From assembly GCA_903822545.1 (NCBI GenBank), contig CAIJPN010000121.1:62001-126000 (forward strand): 64,000 bases of DNA, written 5' to 3'. Source of the stretch: an uncultured Anaerolineae bacterium (GTDB taxonomy: Bacteria; Chloroflexota; Anaerolineae; Anaerolineales; Villigracilaceae). The notes below the pieces were generated by a model. The model had not been told where the DNA came from. It saw nothing but the letters and a program-made list of their open reading frames with translations, and did no database searches. The position numbers and the translations under genes are program-made. Shown piece after piece: positions 32,510 to 41,993 of the stretch (its first letter is position 1; each line of letters opens with the position of its first letter).

Positions 32510-32609
32510 ATACATCGAGAAAGGAGATAGCCGAGAAGACCAGTCACCTTATCCGCTCATCTTTGTTCTTCACTACATCCAAGTTATATTGAAAAAGGAG
32601 AATGTAAAA

Positions 32610-33692
32610 ATGCGTAAGAAAATGTTGACACTTGCTGGGATTTTGCTGCTCCTGGCCGTTGTATTGACCGCTTGTGGTGCAGGACCTGCTGGCCCGGCAG
32701 GCCCTGCTGGCCCTGCCGGCCCTGCTGGCCCTGCTGGCCCTGCCGGCCCTGCTGGCGCCGATGGCAAGTCCGCTGAAACAGCCCAACTGAGCTGCTCCGA
32801 ATGCCATAATGACACCCACTTGATTGCCAGTAAACAGGCTGCCTGGGAACTGGAAAAGCATGGTAACGGTGGCGCTATGGTTGAAGAATACAGCAACAAA
32901 AGCTGCGCTTTCTGCCATTCCGGCAACAGCTTCAGCGAAGGCATGGCCGCTGGCAAGAACTTCAGCCAGCTCGAAGCCGGCGCTACTGAACCTGCCCGCC
33001 AGGACTGCCGCGTCTGCCACCAGATCCACAAGACCTACACCGGCGCTGACTGGGCTCTCGTCAGCACTGCCCCGGTTGCCATGGTTGTCAATAAGACCAC
33101 CTATGATGGCGGCACCGGCAACCTGTGCGTCAACTGCCACCAGGCCCGCCGCTACATGGCCAATTTCGCCGCCAAAGATTCTGCCGGCGCTGTTATCCCT
33201 GACAAGTACGCCCCCACCATCCGCTTCAATACCCACCTCAGCGACCAGGCCGACATCATGCTCGCCACGCTCGATGTGAATGCCGTCCTCGGTGTTGAAG
33301 GCAAACCGGGCGCGCACTACACCATGGTGGAAAACACCTGCGCGGGCTGCCACCTCGGCGAACACAACAACCACCTCTTTGAAGCTGAACTGGCTACTTG
33401 CCAAAAGTGCCATGCTGATGCCAAAAACCTTAACGTCAATGACTACAACTTCGAAGAACAGTTCAAGGCTCTGGAAGAAGCTCTGGTCGCCAAGGGCCTG
33501 CTGACTGCAAACGAAGATGGAACCTTCTCGATCGTTACCAAGAACGCCGATGGTTCCCCGGTCATTCTCGACCCGAAACCCGCTGCGGCGCTCTTTGTCC
33601 ACGGCGCGATCGAAGAAGATGCCAGCGATGGCGCTCACAACCCGGCCTATGTGAAGGCCCTGATTGCAGCTGCTCTCGAAGCGCTGAAGTAA
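32610..33692 (+). CDS. Six-heme c-type cytochrome lipoprotein on a collagen-like tether
   Basis: Predicted extracytoplasmic electron-transfer lipoprotein of 360 aa. The signal ends in VVLTAC (lipidated Cys22). Residues 25-48 are eight GPA triplets, then GAD. The globular part has six CxxCH heme sites starting at about residues 62, 99, 133, 173, 244 and 264, and also free His residues that could be distal ligands. No peroxidase or nitrite reductase signature was seen, so the catalytic role, if any, is unknown. It may carry electrons at the cell surface; this is inference. AAGGAG stands close before the ATG. The gene is monocistronic, with a terminator behind. Confidence 0.9.
   Translation: MRKKMLTLAGILLLLAVVLTACGAGPAGPAGPAGPAGPAGPAGPAGPAGADGKSAETAQLSCSECHNDTHLIASKQAAWELEKHGNGGAMVEEYSNKSCAFCHSGNSFSEGMAAGKNFSQLEAGATEPARQDCRVCHQIHKTYTGADWALVSTAPVAMVVNKTTYDGGTGNLCVNCHQARRYMANFAAKDSAGAVIPDKYAPTIRFNTHLSDQADIMLATLDVNAVLGVEGKPGAHYTMVENTCAGCHLGEHNNHLFEAELATCQKCHADAKNLNVNDYNFEEQFKALEEALVAKGLLTANEDGTFSIVTKNADGSPVILDPKPAAALFVHGAIEEDASDGAHNPAYVKALIAAALEALK
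32682..32753 (+). repeat. 9-bp tandem repeat encoding Gly-Pro-Ala
   Basis: Eight copies of a unit close to GGCCCTGCT, mostly identical apart from the third-codon T/C change. It encodes the collagen-like tether of the multiheme lipoprotein and could change length by strand slippage. Confidence 0.9.
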
Positions 33693-33720
33693 CCTTCGCT
33701 AGCGAAACGTAATACCATTT

Positions 33721-33757
33721 GGGGCTGTCCACTGGTGGACAGCCCCATTTCTTTTTC
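33721..33757 (+). terminator. Rho-independent terminator of the multiheme gene
   Basis: GGGGCTGTCCAC TG GTGGACAGCCCC followed by ATTTCTTTTT. It is a 12-bp perfect stem with a T run. Confidence 0.9.
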
Positions 33758-34015
33758 CATGAAATCCCGCGATCACTGTAAAGCTGGAGCTCGCGCCGGA
33801 CAGCGCAGACAGGGCGGAAAAGCACCTTATCCATGTACATCGCCTATGGTGGCGGCAGATTGGCAAGCCACCCAACGCTCATCGCGAGATGCACCAGATA
33901 ATCGCGAAGATTCCCGGAAAACCAATCGTATTGAACTTCAAAAACCAACAACTTGGGTTAAACTAAAAAGTATCGCTCCACCATATCGAAAAACCTGTAA
34001 TTTTTGAAGGTGTGT
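33758..34015. other. Intergenic region without recognisable genes
   Basis: About 260 bp between the cytochrome terminator and the membrane/winged-helix pair. I found no ribosome-site-supported frame or stable hairpin. The pair's promoter must lie here but no clear box is visible. Confidence 0.4.
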
Positions 34016-34930
34016 ATGTTTTGGAAACGCCTGCTCTCGTTTTTTGCGCCATCTCCTGGGGCATTGACACTGCTCTGGGCAGCGCTGGTTATCTCATTGA
34101 TTTTGAGCGCCACCGCTGTTGCCATCGCAGTGGATCAAGCCCAGCTGATGAACAGCAGCCTGGCCATCCTCAGTTTTTGCGCACTCCCCGCTGGGGGTGG
34201 GTTGCTTGCCATCGCCACATTCATCGAGCGCAAACCGGGCGCGCGGGTTTTCTTGTGGAGCGGCGTCAGCCTGATGATGGCTACTGCGATTGGGATATTT
34301 GCTTTGTTTGAAACCACAACCAGCGACGTTGAGGCCTCCCCACTTCCAGTTTTACTGTGCGCTTGCGGGCCGATCCTGCTCATCCCGGCTGGAATTCTGC
34401 TCTTTCTGGCGATCAGAGCATACCCGGCGTTCCGCCAAACCCTGCGCGCCGCCCGCGCACAGCGGATTTTTGAGATGATCCAGGCGCGTAGTGAAGTCAG
34501 GCTGGCAGCCTTATGCGCCGAATTGTCGCTGGACGTGCCGCAAACTCAAAAACTCATCCGCGCGCTGATTGCCGATGGGGAGTTGATGGCTTACCTGGAT
34601 GAAGAAAACCAGCTGATTTACAGCGCCGCCGCGCTTGGAGAAAAGCAACGCCGCCTGCTGGCCATGGTCAAAGCCAAAGGCCGCGCACAGATCGATGAAC
34701 TAGCGGCAGAACTCAAAGTTCGACGTGAACTGGTGCGCCAGTGGACGTATGCGCTGGCAGGCCGGCGACAACTGCACGGGTTTGTCGATTGGGCCGGAGG
34801 CAGCATCTATTCACAGGATGTTGAAAAACTCATCGCCCAGAACCAATGTCCGCATTGCGGCGGGCGGCTGGAAGTGGCCGGGAAAGGCCTGATCCAGTGC
34901 CAGCACTGCGGGGTGGAGGTTTTCCAATGA
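34016..34930 (+). CDS. Membrane protein with tandem winged-helix and C-terminal zinc ribbon (first copy)
   Basis: Of unknown function, 304 aa. Three to four hydrophobic segments occupy about residues 10-145. They are followed by a helical winged-helix-like region (AQRIFEMIQARSEVRLAALCAEL, about 155-205) and a second one (RRLLAMVKAKGRAQIDELAAELKVRRELVRQW, about 215-265). A zinc ribbon ends the protein with CPHCGG and CQHCG. The start is ATG 34016 with AAGG 5 nt before. A membrane-bound transcription factor is plausible from the layout. Its 3' end overlaps the paralogue by 4 nt (ATGA). Family name not recognised. Confidence 0.75.
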   Translation: MFWKRLLSFFAPSPGALTLLWAALVISLILSATAVAIAVDQAQLMNSSLAILSFCALPAGGGLLAIATFIERKPGARVFLWSGVSLMMATAIGIFALFETTTSDVEASPLPVLLCACGPILLIPAGILLFLAIRAYPAFRQTLRAARAQRIFEMIQARSEVRLAALCAELSLDVPQTQKLIRALIADGELMAYLDEENQLIYSAAALGEKQRRLLAMVKAKGRAQIDELAAELKVRRELVRQWTYALAGRRQLHGFVDWAGGSIYSQDVEKLIAQNQCPHCGGRLEVAGKGLIQCQHCGVEVFQ

Positions 34931-35883
34931 ACCAGCCAGCCTCCAATTGGACGCGCCTCCTGCGCCTGTTCCAGCCCGCCACCCACACCACGAAATTCCT
35001 GGGCCTGGCCTTGCTCCTGCCCGCGATGATGACAGCCTGCCTGCTGGTTGTCATCCTATCTGCCGGGCCAAGCAAAAGCGGGACAAGCAACCTTGAAGCC
35101 TTGCTGCTGGCAATAGGATTTTTCATACTTCCATTGATTGCCCTGCTGCTGGGAATTGCCGCCCTGCGTGAGCCGCGTTACCCGCCCCGGGCAGTGCTCT
35201 GGCTGGCAGCGACCCTGCTCGTTTTCACTGGCGGCAGCCTGGTCTCCTTCCTGATGTTCATCGACCCCCAAATGGAGCCGCTCACCGCCATCGTTTTCAT
35301 GCTGATCGTCATCTTACCGGCGGCATTGTTGGTTTCCCTGCCCGCAATTTACAGCGGCGCCAAAACACTGCCAGAACTGCGAGCGACCCTGATCGCGGCT
35401 GCCGGGGAGCGGGCGCTGGCCTACATCGCTGCGCGCGGTATGATCAGCCTGGCCGAACTATCGATGCTGGTAGATGTATCCCAGAATGAAATCGACAACC
35501 TGGTGGATGAGCTGCTGCGCTCCGGCCAGCTGGCCGGGATGCTGGATACCACCAGCGGGCAGGTTTTCACCGCCGCTTACCTGGCCGAGCAACAGCGCCA
35601 GCTGCTTGAATGGGTCAACCTGCGCGGGAATATTCGCATCGAAGAACTGGCGCGGCTGCTCAAAACCACCCCGCCCACTGTTTCAGATTGGATCTACCAG
35701 CTTGTCCAGCGCGGACAGTTCAACGGCTACATCAACTGGGGCAAGGGCCTGGTATACGCCGCCAGCGCCCGCAAAATCGGCGCAAACAGCCAATGCCCAG
35801 AATGCGGCGGCGCGCTGGCCCCCGCGGGCGGACAAAAAATCATCTGCCTGCACTGCGGCACCGAGATGTGGGAGAAAGCCTGA
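34927..35883 (+). CDS. Membrane protein with tandem winged-helix and C-terminal zinc ribbon (second copy)
   Basis: Paralogue of the previous gene, 318 aa, with the same order. Hydrophobic segments (about 30-160) come first, then GERALAYIAARGMISLAELSMLVDVSQNE, a second helical HTH (WVNLRGNIRIEELARLL), and the zinc ribbon CPECGGALAPAGGQKIICLHCG. The two copies align best in the last 70 residues, with divergence in the membrane part, so the duplication is old. Translation is coupled through the ATGA overlap, which favours a heteromeric complex. The function is unknown. Confidence 0.75.
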   Translation: MNQPASNWTRLLRLFQPATHTTKFLGLALLLPAMMTACLLVVILSAGPSKSGTSNLEALLLAIGFFILPLIALLLGIAALREPRYPPRAVLWLAATLLVFTGGSLVSFLMFIDPQMEPLTAIVFMLIVILPAALLVSLPAIYSGAKTLPELRATLIAAAGERALAYIAARGMISLAELSMLVDVSQNEIDNLVDELLRSGQLAGMLDTTSGQVFTAAYLAEQQRQLLEWVNLRGNIRIEELARLLKTTPPTVSDWIYQLVQRGQFNGYINWGKGLVYAASARKIGANSQCPECGGALAPAGGQKIICLHCGTEMWEKA

Positions 35884-35953: not shown

Positions 35954-38900
35954 CTACTTTCCCTGCATTTTCCGGTAGGCCAGCGGCGTCATGCCGGTTT
36001 CCTGGTGGAAAACCCGGCTGAAGTAATTGACATCCGAAAAACCGCAGGCCAGCGCAATTGCCGTAACGCTTTGCTGAGAACCTGCCAGCCGCGCCTGGGC
36101 CTGGTGCACCCGATAGCGGTTCAGGTAAGCCATCGGCGAAAGGCCAGTTTCCTGGCGAAAGCAGCGCGCCAGGTGACCATCACTGGCATTGACGTGGCGA
36201 GCCAATCCCTCGCGCGTGATTTGGGCGGCATAATGCTGGTGAATGTAAGCCATAGCCTTGCGCGCCAGCCGCTGCGAGTCACTGCCCAAACGCGGGTTGC
36301 GCCCCAGCACGGCCTCGATGTGTGCCAGCATCTCCGAAGCAGCGTACAGCCCCTTGCCCATCACCATCGCCACACCCTGATTCAGGCGCGCCATATCGGC
36401 CTCGGTCAGGCTCTTGGATGTCAGCACAATCACAGCCGTATCGCGCGTCTTATCCCACTCGCGCATCTGGGCCAGCACGCCAAAACCGTCCACTTCTGGC
36501 ATCATCAGATCGAGCAGTACCAGTTGGACGGGCGTTTTTGCCAGGATCTCCAGCGCAGCGCGCCCATCGGAGGCTTTTAGCACACGGTGACGGGGGAATT
36601 GATCCTGGATCAACTGCGAATTCATCTCAAGCATCCCAGGATCATCATCCACAATGAGAATTGTGCGCTCTCCGCCCTGCAGCTTGCCCACCCAGCCCTG
36701 GCGTTTCAGCGCCTGGATCAAATCCCCGGCCCCGACGGGCTTCATCAGGTAATCAAGCGCCAGCATCGAACCGCTTTCACCCTCCAGCGAGTAGAACAGC
36801 ACCGGGATGTTGGCCGTGTGTGGGTTACCCTTGAGCACCTTGAGCAATTCCCAGCCATACTGGGCTGCCAAAGTCTCATCCAACACTACCGCGCCGGGCG
36901 GCGAGACCAGCACAGACGAAAGCCAGTCGGGATTTTCATCCACAGATTGTTGTAGCGCTGCAAAACCAGCCCGTTCCAGCCGGGCGCGGATGGGATCATC
37001 GGAACCTGGCCTGGATGTGAGAATCAGCACCGAGCCGGAACGTGGATTGGGGGCGGAGGCTTCAGCGGAATCCAGCACCGGCAGCCGGAAAAAGAACATC
37101 GACCCCGAACCTTCCTCACCGCTCGACGAGACTCCCACTTCCCCATTATGCAGTTCCACCAAACGTTTACAGATGGCCAACCCCAACCCCAGGCCACCGT
37201 AGCCCCGGGCAGCGGTGCGCTCCGACTGGCGGAATTCATCAAAAATCCAGGGCTGCTCCTCAGGGGCAATGCCCAGGCCGGTATCCTGCACCGAAACCGA
37301 AAGCCAGGGGCCATCGCTGGCAATCCGCAGGGCCACATGACCTTTGGAGGTGAATTTGATAGCGTTGCTGACCAGGTTGAGCGTGATCTGTTGCAGCCGG
37401 GTACGATCGCCCCAGATGCGCGGCAACCCGGCAGGAAGCTCGGCCTGCCAGGCCAGCCCTTTTTCGGCGGCCATCTGGCGGCCGGTTTCGGCCACCATTT
37501 GCAGGGCTTCAGGAAGATCGAGCGGTTCACAGGTCAGGCGCAATTGCCCGGCATCGCTGGAGGCCAGGTCGAGCACATCGCGGATTAGCCGCCCGAGGTG
37601 CTGGGCGCTGGTGTGGATGTGCCCGGCAAAACGCGCCGCATCCGCGCCGGGGTTGTTGAGCAGCATTTCGCTCCAGCCGACGATTAGATTGAGCGGTGTG
37701 CGCAGTTCGTGGCTGACGGTGGAGAGGAAACGGCTTTTCAGGCGGTTGGCTTCCTCGGCCAGCTGGCGGCCCTCGGCGGCCTCGCGGTACAGGCGGATAC
37801 TTTCCAGCGTGGAGGCTACCTGCCGGGCCACCGCCAGGCACGGGTACAGGTCGGCAGCGTCGAAGGCGATGAAACCAGCCGGTTGTTTTTGCACCACAAG
37901 CGGCAGCAGGGCCAGTTGCCAGGGCGGGGTATCATCATATAGATTGGCGGGCGGGAAGCTGCGGGTGGGGAAACGTCGCGTGGCAGCTTCCGATCCAGGG
38001 AAAACGCTCCAGGCCACCGGGTCATCCGAAGCCGGTTCAAACAGAACCAGTTTGGCGTGGCGAATCCCTAAATTCTGCACAAAACGGTCGAGGATGCTTT
38101 GCAACGGGGCCAATTCCACCGCTTCGCTCAGGTCGGCAGACATCAGGCTGAGCTGCTGGGTGGCTACATTCTGGCGGGCAAAATAACGCAAAAGCTGGCG
38201 CTGGGCGCACTCGCTGATGGCCATGCGCGCCTGGTCGAGCCATTCCAACACCTGTTCACGCGCGGGGCTGGTTGCATCCAGCATCAACCAGCGGTGGCGC
38301 AGCAGGTGAATGGCAGCCTGCCAGGCGTGGGCATCTTCATCGAGCGTTTCGAGATGATCAAGGATGGCTTTTAGCGCCACCTGGAAGGGAGCCCCGTCTG
38401 ATTGGGCGATGCTGGCGCTGAAACCATCTACCAACCTGGCAACAAGCGCGCGAATCGCTTCCAGGTGCAACTGCCCCACCTGGGCAAAAACCGCCGCGCT
38501 GATGCTATCTACCGTATCTGCGATTTTCTCCCCATCTGGAAGTGCCCCCGGCGCAAGCAAATTGGGCTGGCAGCCACAAGAGCCGCGGATAACCAGTTGC
38601 GATGGCACTCGCAGGATTGTCTGCTCGCTGGCCTGGCCCGCTAAACGTTCCAGCATCAATTCCAGCGATTGCCAGCCAATCTCATAAGCCGGTTGGTTGA
38701 CAGTGGTCAGCGGCGGCGACTGGTTGCGCGCCTCGAAGCGGTTATCAAAGCCGATCACGGCCACATCCTGCGGGATGCGCTTCCCGGCTTCGCGCAGGGC
38801 TTGCATCGCGCCCACCGCCGATTCATCATTGCAGGCCAGCACGGCGCTAAAATCTGCGCCGCTGTCCAGGATCTGGCGCATGGCAGCGTACCCGCCAGGG

Positions 38901-39472
38901 GTGGTGAAATGCCCGTAGGCCAGCAGGCGCAGATCGGCAGGCAGGTTGTGGGCCTGGTTGAACGCGAGGAAAGCCTGCAAACGCTCCAGCCCATCCCCGG
39001 CTCGTTCTTCTTCCGCGCCGATGAAGGCGATGCGTTCGTGCCCGTGGGTTTTCAGGTGCTCCAGCGCAGCGCGAATGCCCCCGGCATTATCCACACAGAC
39101 GGCTGGGCCCACATCCGCAGTGGATGCGAAAACCAGCGGATGCCCGCCCCGCTGCATTTCTCCGATGCAATCGGCCTGGATTGCATCGGAGAAATTGGGA
39201 GCAATGACAATCAACCCATCAGTGTTCCACGCCCCGACCGGCAGGAAATCCACATCTGGGGCGGCCACCGGCCAGGCAGCGCGGATTCCGCTAGAGAAAT
39301 CGGAAACCACCCCGCAGGCCATTAAGATGTTGACTTCCCGCGCCCGGGCAGCATCGTAAATCCCATGCAAGATCGGGCTGAGCAGGGTGTTCAACGTCCC
39401 GGCATAAACCTGCCAGCTGGCCAGCACACCCACAATCGGGCGGCGATTGGTGATAGTGGGGAGAAAGGTCAC
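35954..39472 (-). CDS. One-polypeptide LacI-type sensor / histidine kinase / receiver / AraC regulator
   Basis: A 1172-aa cytosolic regulator. Residues 12-300 are a LacI/GalR-like sugar-binding domain without the LacI DNA-binding helix. A weak GAF-like region follows (about 450-560), then HisKA with the phosphorylated His588 (STVSHELRTPLN) and HATPase_c (about 690-797). A receiver-like domain lacking the acidic pocket comes next (813-925), then an intact receiver (936-1055, VDDDPG, Asp988). An AraC/XylS double helix-turn-helix ends the protein (1070-1168). No signal peptide or transmembrane segment was found, so it should detect an internal sugar. The start codon is GTG, 6 nt downstream of TATAAT. 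The nearby carbohydrate enzymes are candidate targets. Confidence 0.9.
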   Translation of the reverse strand: MTFLPTITNRRPIVGVLASWQVYAGTLNTLLSPILHGIYDAARAREVNILMACGVVSDFSSGIRAAWPVAAPDVDFLPVGAWNTDGLIVIAPNFSDAIQADCIGEMQRGGHPLVFASTADVGPAVCVDNAGGIRAALEHLKTHGHERIAFIGAEEERAGDGLERLQAFLAFNQAHNLPADLRLLAYGHFTTPGGYAAMRQILDSGADFSAVLACNDESAVGAMQALREAGKRIPQDVAVIGFDNRFEARNQSPPLTTVNQPAYEIGWQSLELMLERLAGQASEQTILRVPSQLVIRGSCGCQPNLLAPGALPDGEKIADTVDSISAAVFAQVGQLHLEAIRALVARLVDGFSASIAQSDGAPFQVALKAILDHLETLDEDAHAWQAAIHLLRHRWLMLDATSPAREQVLEWLDQARMAISECAQRQLLRYFARQNVATQQLSLMSADLSEAVELAPLQSILDRFVQNLGIRHAKLVLFEPASDDPVAWSVFPGSEAATRRFPTRSFPPANLYDDTPPWQLALLPLVVQKQPAGFIAFDAADLYPCLAVARQVASTLESIRLYREAAEGRQLAEEANRLKSRFLSTVSHELRTPLNLIVGWSEMLLNNPGADAARFAGHIHTSAQHLGRLIRDVLDLASSDAGQLRLTCEPLDLPEALQMVAETGRQMAAEKGLAWQAELPAGLPRIWGDRTRLQQITLNLVSNAIKFTSKGHVALRIASDGPWLSVSVQDTGLGIAPEEQPWIFDEFRQSERTAARGYGGLGLGLAICKRLVELHNGEVGVSSSGEEGSGSMFFFRLPVLDSAEASAPNPRSGSVLILTSRPGSDDPIRARLERAGFAALQQSVDENPDWLSSVLVSPPGAVVLDETLAAQYGWELLKVLKGNPHTANIPVLFYSLEGESGSMLALDYLMKPVGAGDLIQALKRQGWVGKLQGGERTILIVDDDPGMLEMNSQLIQDQFPRHRVLKASDGRAALEILAKTPVQLVLLDLMMPEVDGFGVLAQMREWDKTRDTAVIVLTSKSLTEADMARLNQGVAMVMGKGLYAASEMLAHIEAVLGRNPRLGSDSQRLARKAMAYIHQHYAAQITREGLARHVNASDGHLARCFRQETGLSPMAYLNRYRVHQAQARLAGSQQSVTAIALACGFSDVNYFSRVFHQETGMTPLAYRKMQGK

Positions 39473-39845: not shown

Positions 39846-41510
39846 CTAAGCCTGCGCAGCGTGTTGGGCCGCCAGGTAGCCAAAGGTCATTGCCGGGCCG
39901 ATGGTGGCTCCCGCGCCCGGATAGCTGTTTCCCATCACCGAGGCCATGCTGTTGCCGACGGCATACAATCCTGGGATCGTTGAACCATCTGGCCGTAGCA
40001 CACAGGCCCATTCATCGGTAACCAGCCCGCCTTTGGTATCAAGATCGCCCGGCCACATTTTGATTGCATAAAATGGCGGGTTTTGGATGGCTGCCAGGTT
40101 GGGGTTGGGCTTTACTGTCGGGTCGCCGTAATAATTATCGTAGGCGCTTTCTCCGCGGTTAAAGTCGAGATCTTTGCCAGTTTGGGCAAACTGGTTAAAC
40201 CGTTCCACTGTTTTTGCCAGGGTGGATTCATCTACCCCGATTTGGCGGGCCAGCGATGGAAGTGTGGCCGCCCGCTGGATATATCCATTTTGAAAATAGC
40301 GTTCCGGGATGGGCATTCCGGGGAAGAACAGCCCAAACAGGTATTTGTTTCGGTAGCGCTGGTCAAAGATAAAGTAGGCTGGAATGTGGGGCGCTGCTGG
40401 GGTGTGATTCTTATACACACGATGAATCACATCCACATACGGCGCAGATTCGTTTACAAAGCGCTGTCCTAGCCCGTTGACGATGATCCCGCCTGGGTAG
40501 CCGCGTTCGCCCACATGGAAAAAAGGTGCTTCATTGGGTGGGCGAGAAGATGGCCCCCACCAGGCATCATCCATCAGGTCTGTTGCTGCGCCCAGTTGGA
40601 GGCCTGCCCGGATGGCATCGCCTGTATTGCCTGTGCTGGCCACGGTCCATTCGGTGGAAGTCGGCGCTGGCAGGTATTGCTGTCGCATCTCAAGGTTGTG
40701 TGAAAACCCGCCCGCTGCCAGGACAACCCCTTTGCGAGCCAGGATACGCATGGGCTGGCCTTCCCGCTCGATCGCCGCGCCTACAACCCGACCGCCATTC
40801 ACCACCAATTCCTGCAACGGTGACTTTAACCACAAAGGGATGTTGGCCTGTTGCATGGCGTAACGCAACCGTCCGCTCAGGGCCTGTCCCATTGTCAGGC
40901 AGCGCACCCCGGTCAGTGTATCCCTGATCCAGCGCGCGACAGCCTTGATGGAAGCTGATTTACCCTCCCAGGTGGATGTAAACATGCCGATTTTTTGATA
41001 ATCGGAACCGGTGAAAGCCAGCCCGCCGGGGGCCTCTGCCATCGGTTTGCGCAAAAGGGCCAGATCAGGCCCCAGCTTTTTCCCGTCAAAAGGTAGCGGT
41101 TCCAGGCTGCGGCTGGCTGCAATCCCGCCGGGGCGTTCGGGGTAATAATCGGCATAACCGGGCATGCGCTGGAATTGGACACAGGTGTTATCTCGCAGCC
41201 ATGCCACCATGCGCGGAGCGTGGGTCAGGTAGGTATCCTGCAATTTTTGGGGTACGCGATCCCCGACCGTGTTTTGCATGTAAAGCCGGGCGTTTTCAAA
41301 GGAATCTTCGACCCCATCCTGCGCCAGCAGGTGATGGGCAGGAATCCACAATGCGCCCCCAGAACGGGCGGTTGAGCCGCCAAAAAAACCTGTTTTTTCA
41401 ATGACCAGCACCTCCAGCCCCAGTTTTTTGGCTACCAGCGCGGCAGTCATCCCGCCGCCGCCAGAACCTACTACGAGCAGATCCACTTCCTGATCCCATT
41501 GCGTATTCAT
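39846..41510 (-). CDS. FAD-dependent 3-ketosteroid-delta1-dehydrogenase-like flavoprotein
   Basis: A fumarate-reductase/KstD superfamily flavoenzyme of 554 aa. The first 35 residues hold the FAD-binding VVGSGGGGMTAALVAKK. The steroid-dehydrogenase-type C-terminal motif is clear: YAVGNSMASVMGNSYPGAGATIGPAMTFGY. The aromatic pair in GYADYYPERPGG also fits KstD. This supports 1,2-dehydrogenation of a 3-keto-steroid or similar ring, but substrate is not provable here. It sits 15 bp downstream of a Ddn-like gene on the same strand, so the two are probably an operon. A urocanate or fumarate reductase is less likely. Confidence 0.8.
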   Translation of the reverse strand: MNTQWDQEVDLLVVGSGGGGMTAALVAKKLGLEVLVIEKTGFFGGSTARSGGALWIPAHHLLAQDGVEDSFENARLYMQNTVGDRVPQKLQDTYLTHAPRMVAWLRDNTCVQFQRMPGYADYYPERPGGIAASRSLEPLPFDGKKLGPDLALLRKPMAEAPGGLAFTGSDYQKIGMFTSTWEGKSASIKAVARWIRDTLTGVRCLTMGQALSGRLRYAMQQANIPLWLKSPLQELVVNGGRVVGAAIEREGQPMRILARKGVVLAAGGFSHNLEMRQQYLPAPTSTEWTVASTGNTGDAIRAGLQLGAATDLMDDAWWGPSSRPPNEAPFFHVGERGYPGGIIVNGLGQRFVNESAPYVDVIHRVYKNHTPAAPHIPAYFIFDQRYRNKYLFGLFFPGMPIPERYFQNGYIQRAATLPSLARQIGVDESTLAKTVERFNQFAQTGKDLDFNRGESAYDNYYGDPTVKPNPNLAAIQNPPFYAIKMWPGDLDTKGGLVTDEWACVLRPDGSTIPGLYAVGNSMASVMGNSYPGAGATIGPAMTFGYLAAQHAAQA

Positions 41511-41525: not shown

Positions 41526-41993
41526 TTAATTTGACGGATCCAAAATGGCGATTTTGAAATAGCGCTGGCTGCGGTCTTCCATCATCTGCCATTTGGGGAA
41601 AAGTGTGGTCAACTGCGGCCAGTATTCAGCTTTTTCTTCGGCCGAAGCGATATGGGCCAGCATTGTTTTGATCTGTCCACGCGCATTTACCGTTACCCTG
41701 GGGTTGGACTGGATATTGAGCAGCCAGGCCGGGTCTCCGGCAGTTCCGGCGTTGGAGGCTACCAGCACGATCCGATCACCTGTCTGCAAATAATACAGCG
41801 GCTGTGTGCGTTCCTGCCCAGATTTTCGCCCAACCGTGGTCAGCAGGAGAACCGGCACACCCAGGAAGCTGTTGCCTATACGGCCTTTGCTGACCTTTAG
41901 CAGCCAGATATTGGTGGATGTGATTAATCCGCGCAGGAATTTTAGCAGTGCGATATGGTAAGGCGTGAACTGCCTGGCAGGGTCTTTACTCAT
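41526..41993 (-). CDS. Deazaflavin (F420)-dependent nitroreductase family protein (Ddn-like)
   Basis: Split-barrel flavin/deazaflavin-dependent reductase, 155 aa. The Ddn-family block VLLLTTVGRKSGQERTQPLYY, with the phosphate-contacting GRKSG, is followed by SNAGTAGDPAWLLNIQSNPRVTV. Both are typical of F420H2-dependent quinone or nitro reductases. The long N-terminal helical lead is also usual and helps membrane contact in family members. It is cotranscribed with the KstD-like gene. The natural substrate is unknown; a cofactor other than F420 (for example FMN) is possible. Confidence 0.85.
   Translation of the reverse strand: MSKDPARQFTPYHIALLKFLRGLITSTNIWLLKVSKGRIGNSFLGVPVLLLTTVGRKSGQERTQPLYYLQTGDRIVLVASNAGTAGDPAWLLNIQSNPRVTVNARGQIKTMLAHIASAEEKAEYWPQLTTLFPKWQMMEDRSQRYFKIAILDPSN

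Follow-up and report, generated by a model that had tools for sequence, protein, structure and literature searches.

Collagen-armed hexaheme lipoprotein of an Anaerolineales bacterium as a candidate quinol-linked electron carrier

A gene located at 32610..33692 on the forward strand of the 64-kb stretch of Anaerolineales DNA analyzed here (hereafter, the window) encodes a lipoprotein of 360 aa, in which a collagen-like run stands between the lipid anchor and six CxxCH heme motifs. The locus raises the question of what such a protein would do in the cell envelope, and with which partners. According to passages of one published study, Anaerolineales genomes are rich in multiheme proteins, porin-cytochrome complexes were not identified in them, and Anaerolineae are found on anodes (PMC7399161); passages of another describe bidirectional extracellular electron transfer in Ardenticatena maritima, a presumably single-membrane member of the Chloroflexota (PMC5808234). 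In the passages of these two papers retrieved by term search, collagen-like arms on the multihemes are not mentioned. Likewise, the open-access papers searched yielded no description of lipoproteins with a collagen-like arm, or of such arms combined with multiheme domains in Anaerolineae.

Layout of the gene and its product

The open reading frame, supported by orthologs, starts with ATG at 32610, and its stop codon ends at 33692. A ribosome-binding site, AAGGAG, was found 9 nt upstream of the ATG (32595..32600, forward strand), and a strong intrinsic terminator with a 12-bp stem and a T tract follows the gene at 33720..33747 on the same strand, so that the gene appears to be monocistronic. 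Among the ORFs of the window, this one alone contains more than one CxxCH, and its shuffled protein sequence never yielded more than two in 20,000 shuffles. On its upstream side lie genes for a PfkB kinase and an M20 peptidase. The downstream side carries two adjacent, similar PCI/winged-helix proteins belonging to one BLAST cluster (34004-35883), followed by a 1172-aa hybrid sensor with a periplasmic-binding-like domain, a histidine kinase, a receiver and an AraC-type output (35954-39472). Further on, a FAD_binding_2 protein (39846-41510) adjoins a gene of the F420H2-dependent quinone reductase family (41526-41993), which is located approximately 7-8 kb downstream of the hexaheme gene. Rfam and tRNA scans of the window gave no matches, and no match indicating plasmid carriage was obtained in the plasmid collection.

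The protein is arranged in the order MRKKMLTLAGILLLLAVVLTAC-GA-(GPA)8-GADGKSAETAQLS, followed by the six CxxCH motifs, all features being encoded on the forward strand. The lipoprotein signal peptide, as read from the sequence, occupies residues 1-21 (32610..32672) with the lipobox LTA/C, and Cys22 (32673..32675), the residue expected to be lipid-modified, is kept in 33 of 35 aligned rows. The (GPA)8 arm covers residues 24-47 (32679..32750), was resolved by Tandem Repeats Finder into eight 9-bp units with mixed codons, and continues, on reading the sequence, into GADGKS. The whole spacer, collagen-like over about ten triplets, extends to residue 61 and comprises 39 residues, which would measure ~11-12 nm when fully extended. 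Its Pfam Collagen score (18.6 bits against a gathering score of 27.2) was below the cut-off, as expected of such a short Gly-X-Y run. The heme motifs, assigned by sequence and alignment, are CSECH (residues 62-66, 32793..32807), CAFCH (residues 99-103, 32904..32918), CRVCH (residues 133-137, 33006..33020), CVNCH (residues 173-177, 33126..33140), CAGCH (residues 244-248, 33339..33353) and CQKCH (residues 264-268, 33399..33413). The 13 Cys residues of the protein are the lipobox Cys and the twelve heme-binding Cys, with none to spare. The lipidated Cys, eight Gly-Pro-Ala triplets and six CxxCH sites described in a sequence-only reading of this DNA were exact, as were the coordinates given there. 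An AlphaFold2 model of the protein built with six sequences had a pLDDT of 44, too low to be usable.

The repeat was not explained by slippage or by an assembly artefact; this possibility was ruled out, as its codons are mixed and orthologs at 38-81% identity keep arms with other triplets and other codons. In these orthologs, the spacer from the anchor to the first heme varies from 28 to 47 residues, mostly in steps of three, and the Gly-X-Y register is unbroken. Both lipobox and arm are missing from one ortholog (L022:1420-2388), although its closest company on the tree is armed; the arm is thus dispensable in at least this case. A relative from the Bacteroidota (L011:7971-9092) was seen to have a different collagen-like run (GKDGKDGIDGTNGTDGANG), and downstream of it lie a beta-barrel DUF5777 gene, a heptaheme gene and a b561 gene.

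Heme domain, conserved putative ligands and known relatives

Full-length relatives were detected across the Anaerolineales in a search of 301 genomes from this order, their heme domains aligning at 38-81% identity. Two more were found in another Chloroflexota family (35-37% identity; phylum sample) and two in the Bacteroidota (27-30% identity; genome-contig scan). An alignment of 35 rows, including two that nearly duplicate other rows, showed no variation in the twelve Cys and six His residues of the heme motifs. Beyond the motifs, exactly six His residues were conserved at 97-100% (H84, H140, H209, H236, H255 and H343, spanning 32859..33638), and these are the likely distal ligands. As one such additional His is available for every heme, bis-His ligation is suggested, and with it a role as an electron carrier. 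In the nonaheme OcwA, a Gram-positive cell-surface reductase, there are His residues enough for nine bis-His hemes, and yet two of the hemes are five-coordinate and one has His-Met ligation (PMC6703420), so that counting His residues is no proof of ligation.

A profile built from 31 family members found OcwA (6i5b) as the best relative in the PDB (E 1.9e-11), with NrfA chains next (E 6e-6 to 2e-4). The matched region (33234..33689, limits approximate) includes hemes 5 and 6, the His255 region, the C-terminal helices and a GxHN-type motif with His343, and the N-terminal half matched MtrC weakly (E 4e-4). By these sequence comparisons, the domain forms a six-heme branch close to OcwA/NrfA. In the Pfam search, the protein matched generic multiheme models and PF22113 (41.9 bits, above the cut-off), and TIGR03507 was absent from its matches at E values up to 1. 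PF22113 (MtrC/MtrF) was rejected as a family assignment for being too loose: it also matches the neighboring octahemes and rings in E. coli.

OcwA of Thermincola potens resembles the hexaheme protein in being an extracytoplasmic multiheme of a single-membrane bacterium and in its last two hemes, distal His, C-terminal helices and GxHN motif. It differs in having nine hemes; the hexaheme protein counts six, with an additional conserved His for each, and also bears the lipid anchor and collagen-like arm. The pentaheme NrfA nitrite reductases (e.g., 8bcx and 2j7a) share the C-terminal hemes, helices and GxHN motif but have different N-terminal halves and, in most cases, a CxxCK catalytic heme without counterpart here, where all six motifs are CxxCH and no CxxCK was found. 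The OmcA/MtrC decaheme family (TIGR03507, PF22113) is approached in the PF22113 score and the weak N-terminal likeness to MtrC; its members, however, have ten hemes, not six, and the host of the hexaheme has no outer membrane found. That family is more nearly approached by a collagen-armed decaheme encoded elsewhere in this genome (TIGR03507, 140 bits, below the 209 cut-off). The initial impression that the domain lacks a known catalytic motif was borne out in part: the missing CxxCK and the one conserved non-motif His per heme fit a carrier, but the domain can be assigned, its C-terminal half being OcwA/NrfA-like.

Gene neighborhoods and candidate partners

No obvious electron-transfer partner was identified among the neighbors of the hexaheme gene in the 64-kb window, in agreement with the sequence-only reading, but this solitary position proved to be atypical. 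When 20 ortholog loci, covering up to 9 kb on either side of the gene, were compared with twenty 18-kb control stretches, drawn for the most part from the same genomes, other multiheme, quinol-linked genes were present in 17 of the former and in none of the latter, the ortholog loci being interrelated and hence not 20 independent events. The exceptions, without multiheme neighbors, were L042, L049 and L050. The neighbors identified by Pfam/NCBIfam profiles comprised a NapC/NirT-type heptaheme, the octaheme and NrfD proteins of an octaheme/FeS/NrfD module, a nonaheme, b561 proteins and a decaheme lipoprotein, together with a tetrathionate-reductase-family octaheme at L007 (OTR-type; TIGR04315, 528 bits) and a cbb3-type c subunit at L058. 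BLAST grouping was used for related genes of the remaining loci. Apart from that cbb3-type subunit, gene order and sequence, rather than profiles, were the basis for recognizing ACIII-like genes (L057, L058) and bc-type genes (L051, L056, L059).

The genome that contains the window also has partner genes, located on other contigs and apart from the hexaheme gene. A NapC-like heptaheme gene lies on contig C25 (63% identity), and an octaheme/FeS/NrfD/nonaheme cluster on C86 (L080:7231-19999) is 70-77% identical to the corresponding cluster of genome G256. Inside the G256 cluster lie a hexaheme gene and two regulator genes, all of which are missing from that on C86. A CcsA-type maturation match (PF01578, 134 bits; C86:41113-41820) is close to the octaheme module. 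In addition, contig C13 encodes an OmcA/MtrC-like collagen-armed decaheme lipoprotein (L061:7801-10200) that shares 63% identity with the decaheme adjacent to the hexahemes of genome G156, and contig C11 encodes a collagen-armed octaheme lipoprotein of ~424 aa (L062:4821-6143). The latter showed weak UshA-like and GSU2203-family similarity, below every family cut-off. As the hexaheme gene is solitary here, as it is at L042, L049 and L050, we infer its partnership in this genome from its relatives.

Omp85 was not found in this genome by a search that rings in 7 of 14 control genomes, and the host Anaerolineales bacterium probably has a single membrane. The proposal that a hexaheme domain is tethered by a lipid anchor and a collagen-like spacer, in an envelope lacking Omp85, was supported. 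Together, we consider it fairly probable that the protein serves in a quinol-linked relay, in which the lipid-anchored hexaheme carries electrons outward from menaquinol-oxidizing complexes. Menaquinol is suggested as the donor because of the NapC- and NrfD-type neighbors.

The collagen-like arm and the proposed relay

Collagen-like arms were surveyed in genome samples by means of a DNA pattern for Gly-Pro-X runs. In the genome of the hexaheme, the pattern occurred at three places, all of them multiheme lipoproteins (6, 8 and 10 CxxCH). In a 61-genome sample of the order, the pattern was found in frame and behind a signal peptide in 18 genes, all of them multiheme, and the same was true of 11 of 11 among the places given as loci in a class sample; the two in-frame runs seen there without a lipoprotein start (L138, L199) were accompanied by no CxxCH. 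A second armed set, biased in that it was picked by similarity to the hexaheme N-terminus, consisted of multihemes with 8 or 10 motifs in all but two cases, namely L152 with three CxxCH and L157 with a Gly-rich run lacking proline and no CxxCH. The ~424-aa size class with eight CxxCH made up the majority of the sampled collagen-armed set. The hexaheme belongs to a widespread set of collagen-armed multihemes, whose role is probably to carry respiratory electrons outward from the cell membrane.

The arm itself is best read as a spacer, since other decaheme lipoproteins of these genomes have TEAPT-type (Pro/Thr-rich) or other linkers in its place and its length changes mostly by whole triplets, as expected of a spacer. 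The bacterial collagen-like proteins Scl and Lcl likewise bear a Gly-X-Y run in a surface protein, and matches to SclA, SclB and Lcl were weak and confined to the arm. Unlike theirs, the run of the hexaheme is short, N-terminal, lipid-anchored and heme-bearing, without a recognized trimerization domain. If the arms of three molecules wound into a genuine collagen triple helix, so that one stalk carried three heme domains, this would account for the unbroken register and the whole-triplet length shifts among orthologs, but we regard it as improbable given that there are only about ten Gly-Pro-Ala triplets, no hydroxyproline and no such trimerization domain, and that other decaheme lipoproteins do with non-collagen linkers. 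Short GPA runs are weak triple-helix formers. It appears more improbable still that the arm is a neutral repeat expansion, merely a loose link between two parts; repeats do grow easily, and the L022 ortholog lost its arm along with the lipobox, but nearly all orthologs, however weakly conserved in other regions, retain an arm of 28-47 residues, and arms occur on three multiheme lipoproteins of unrelated size in this genome.

In the main rival to the relay, the protein would feed electrons to, or belong to, an anaerobic reductase at the outer membrane surface that acts on a soluble N or S compound, such as an oxyanion, and would take no part in reaching insoluble acceptors. In its favor, three close relatives (L007/L041, L043, L047) lie near a tetrathionate-reductase-family octaheme and a multiheme b561 protein, a Sulf_transp gene adjoins these genes at L007, and the C-terminal half of the hexaheme is NrfA-like. 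Most other loci, however, lack the octaheme reductase and contain decaheme lipoproteins or quinol-oxidizing modules instead, and no reductase gene was found in the 64-kb window, so that we judge this reading unlikely. A somewhat smaller chance is given to the hexaheme being itself a terminal reductase, with at least one five-coordinate substrate-binding heme as in OcwA. The catalytic hemes of OcwA, its nearest PDB relative, also bear ordinary CxxCH motifs, but a conserved non-motif His is available for each of the six hemes, and the CxxCK of most NrfA proteins is missing.

In the favored quinol-linked relay, the lipoprotein would be anchored on the outer face of the cytoplasmic membrane, and its six hemes, presumably mostly bis-His and low-spin, would conduct electrons rather than perform chemistry. 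Electrons would be supplied by menaquinol-oxidizing complexes, either the NapC-like heptaheme or the octaheme/FeS/NrfD module, and in some relatives by ACIII-like or bc-type complexes. The extended arm, acting as a spacer and not as an adhesin, would keep the heme domain ~10 nm off the membrane for docking with these complexes. As a Gram-positive wall is 20-80 nm thick (PMC7911101), an arm of ~11-12 nm alone would not cross it; the next carrier would be another multiheme, for instance the collagen-armed decaheme encoded on C13, and from there electrons may reach an acceptor at or beyond the wall. This last step, delivery to an external acceptor, is put forward tentatively, at somewhat less than an even chance, and extracellular respiration in this lineage is plausible (PMC7399161, PMC5808234). 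A comparable chain has been proposed for the Gram-positive envelope of Thermincola, from a quinol oxidizer via multiheme relays to a surface cytochrome (ImdcA, PdcA, CwcA and OcwA), in which CwcA is a hexaheme too; an OmcS-like polymer is proposed across the wall there (PMC7911101), in contrast to the lipoproteins on collagen-like arms found here.

It is possible, though on the doubtful side, that multiheme lipoproteins with 6, 8 or 10 hemes form a class of their own in Anaerolineae, in which a collagen-like stalk between the lipid anchor and the heme domain would provide a modular relay across the wall, where other electroactive bacteria use porin-cytochrome conduits or cytochrome polymers. 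Collagen-armed heme lipoproteins, present in many genomes beside quinol-linked genes, would offer concrete candidate parts for an outward electron route without an outer membrane, and short bacterial collagen-like repeats would gain a testable role besides adhesion.
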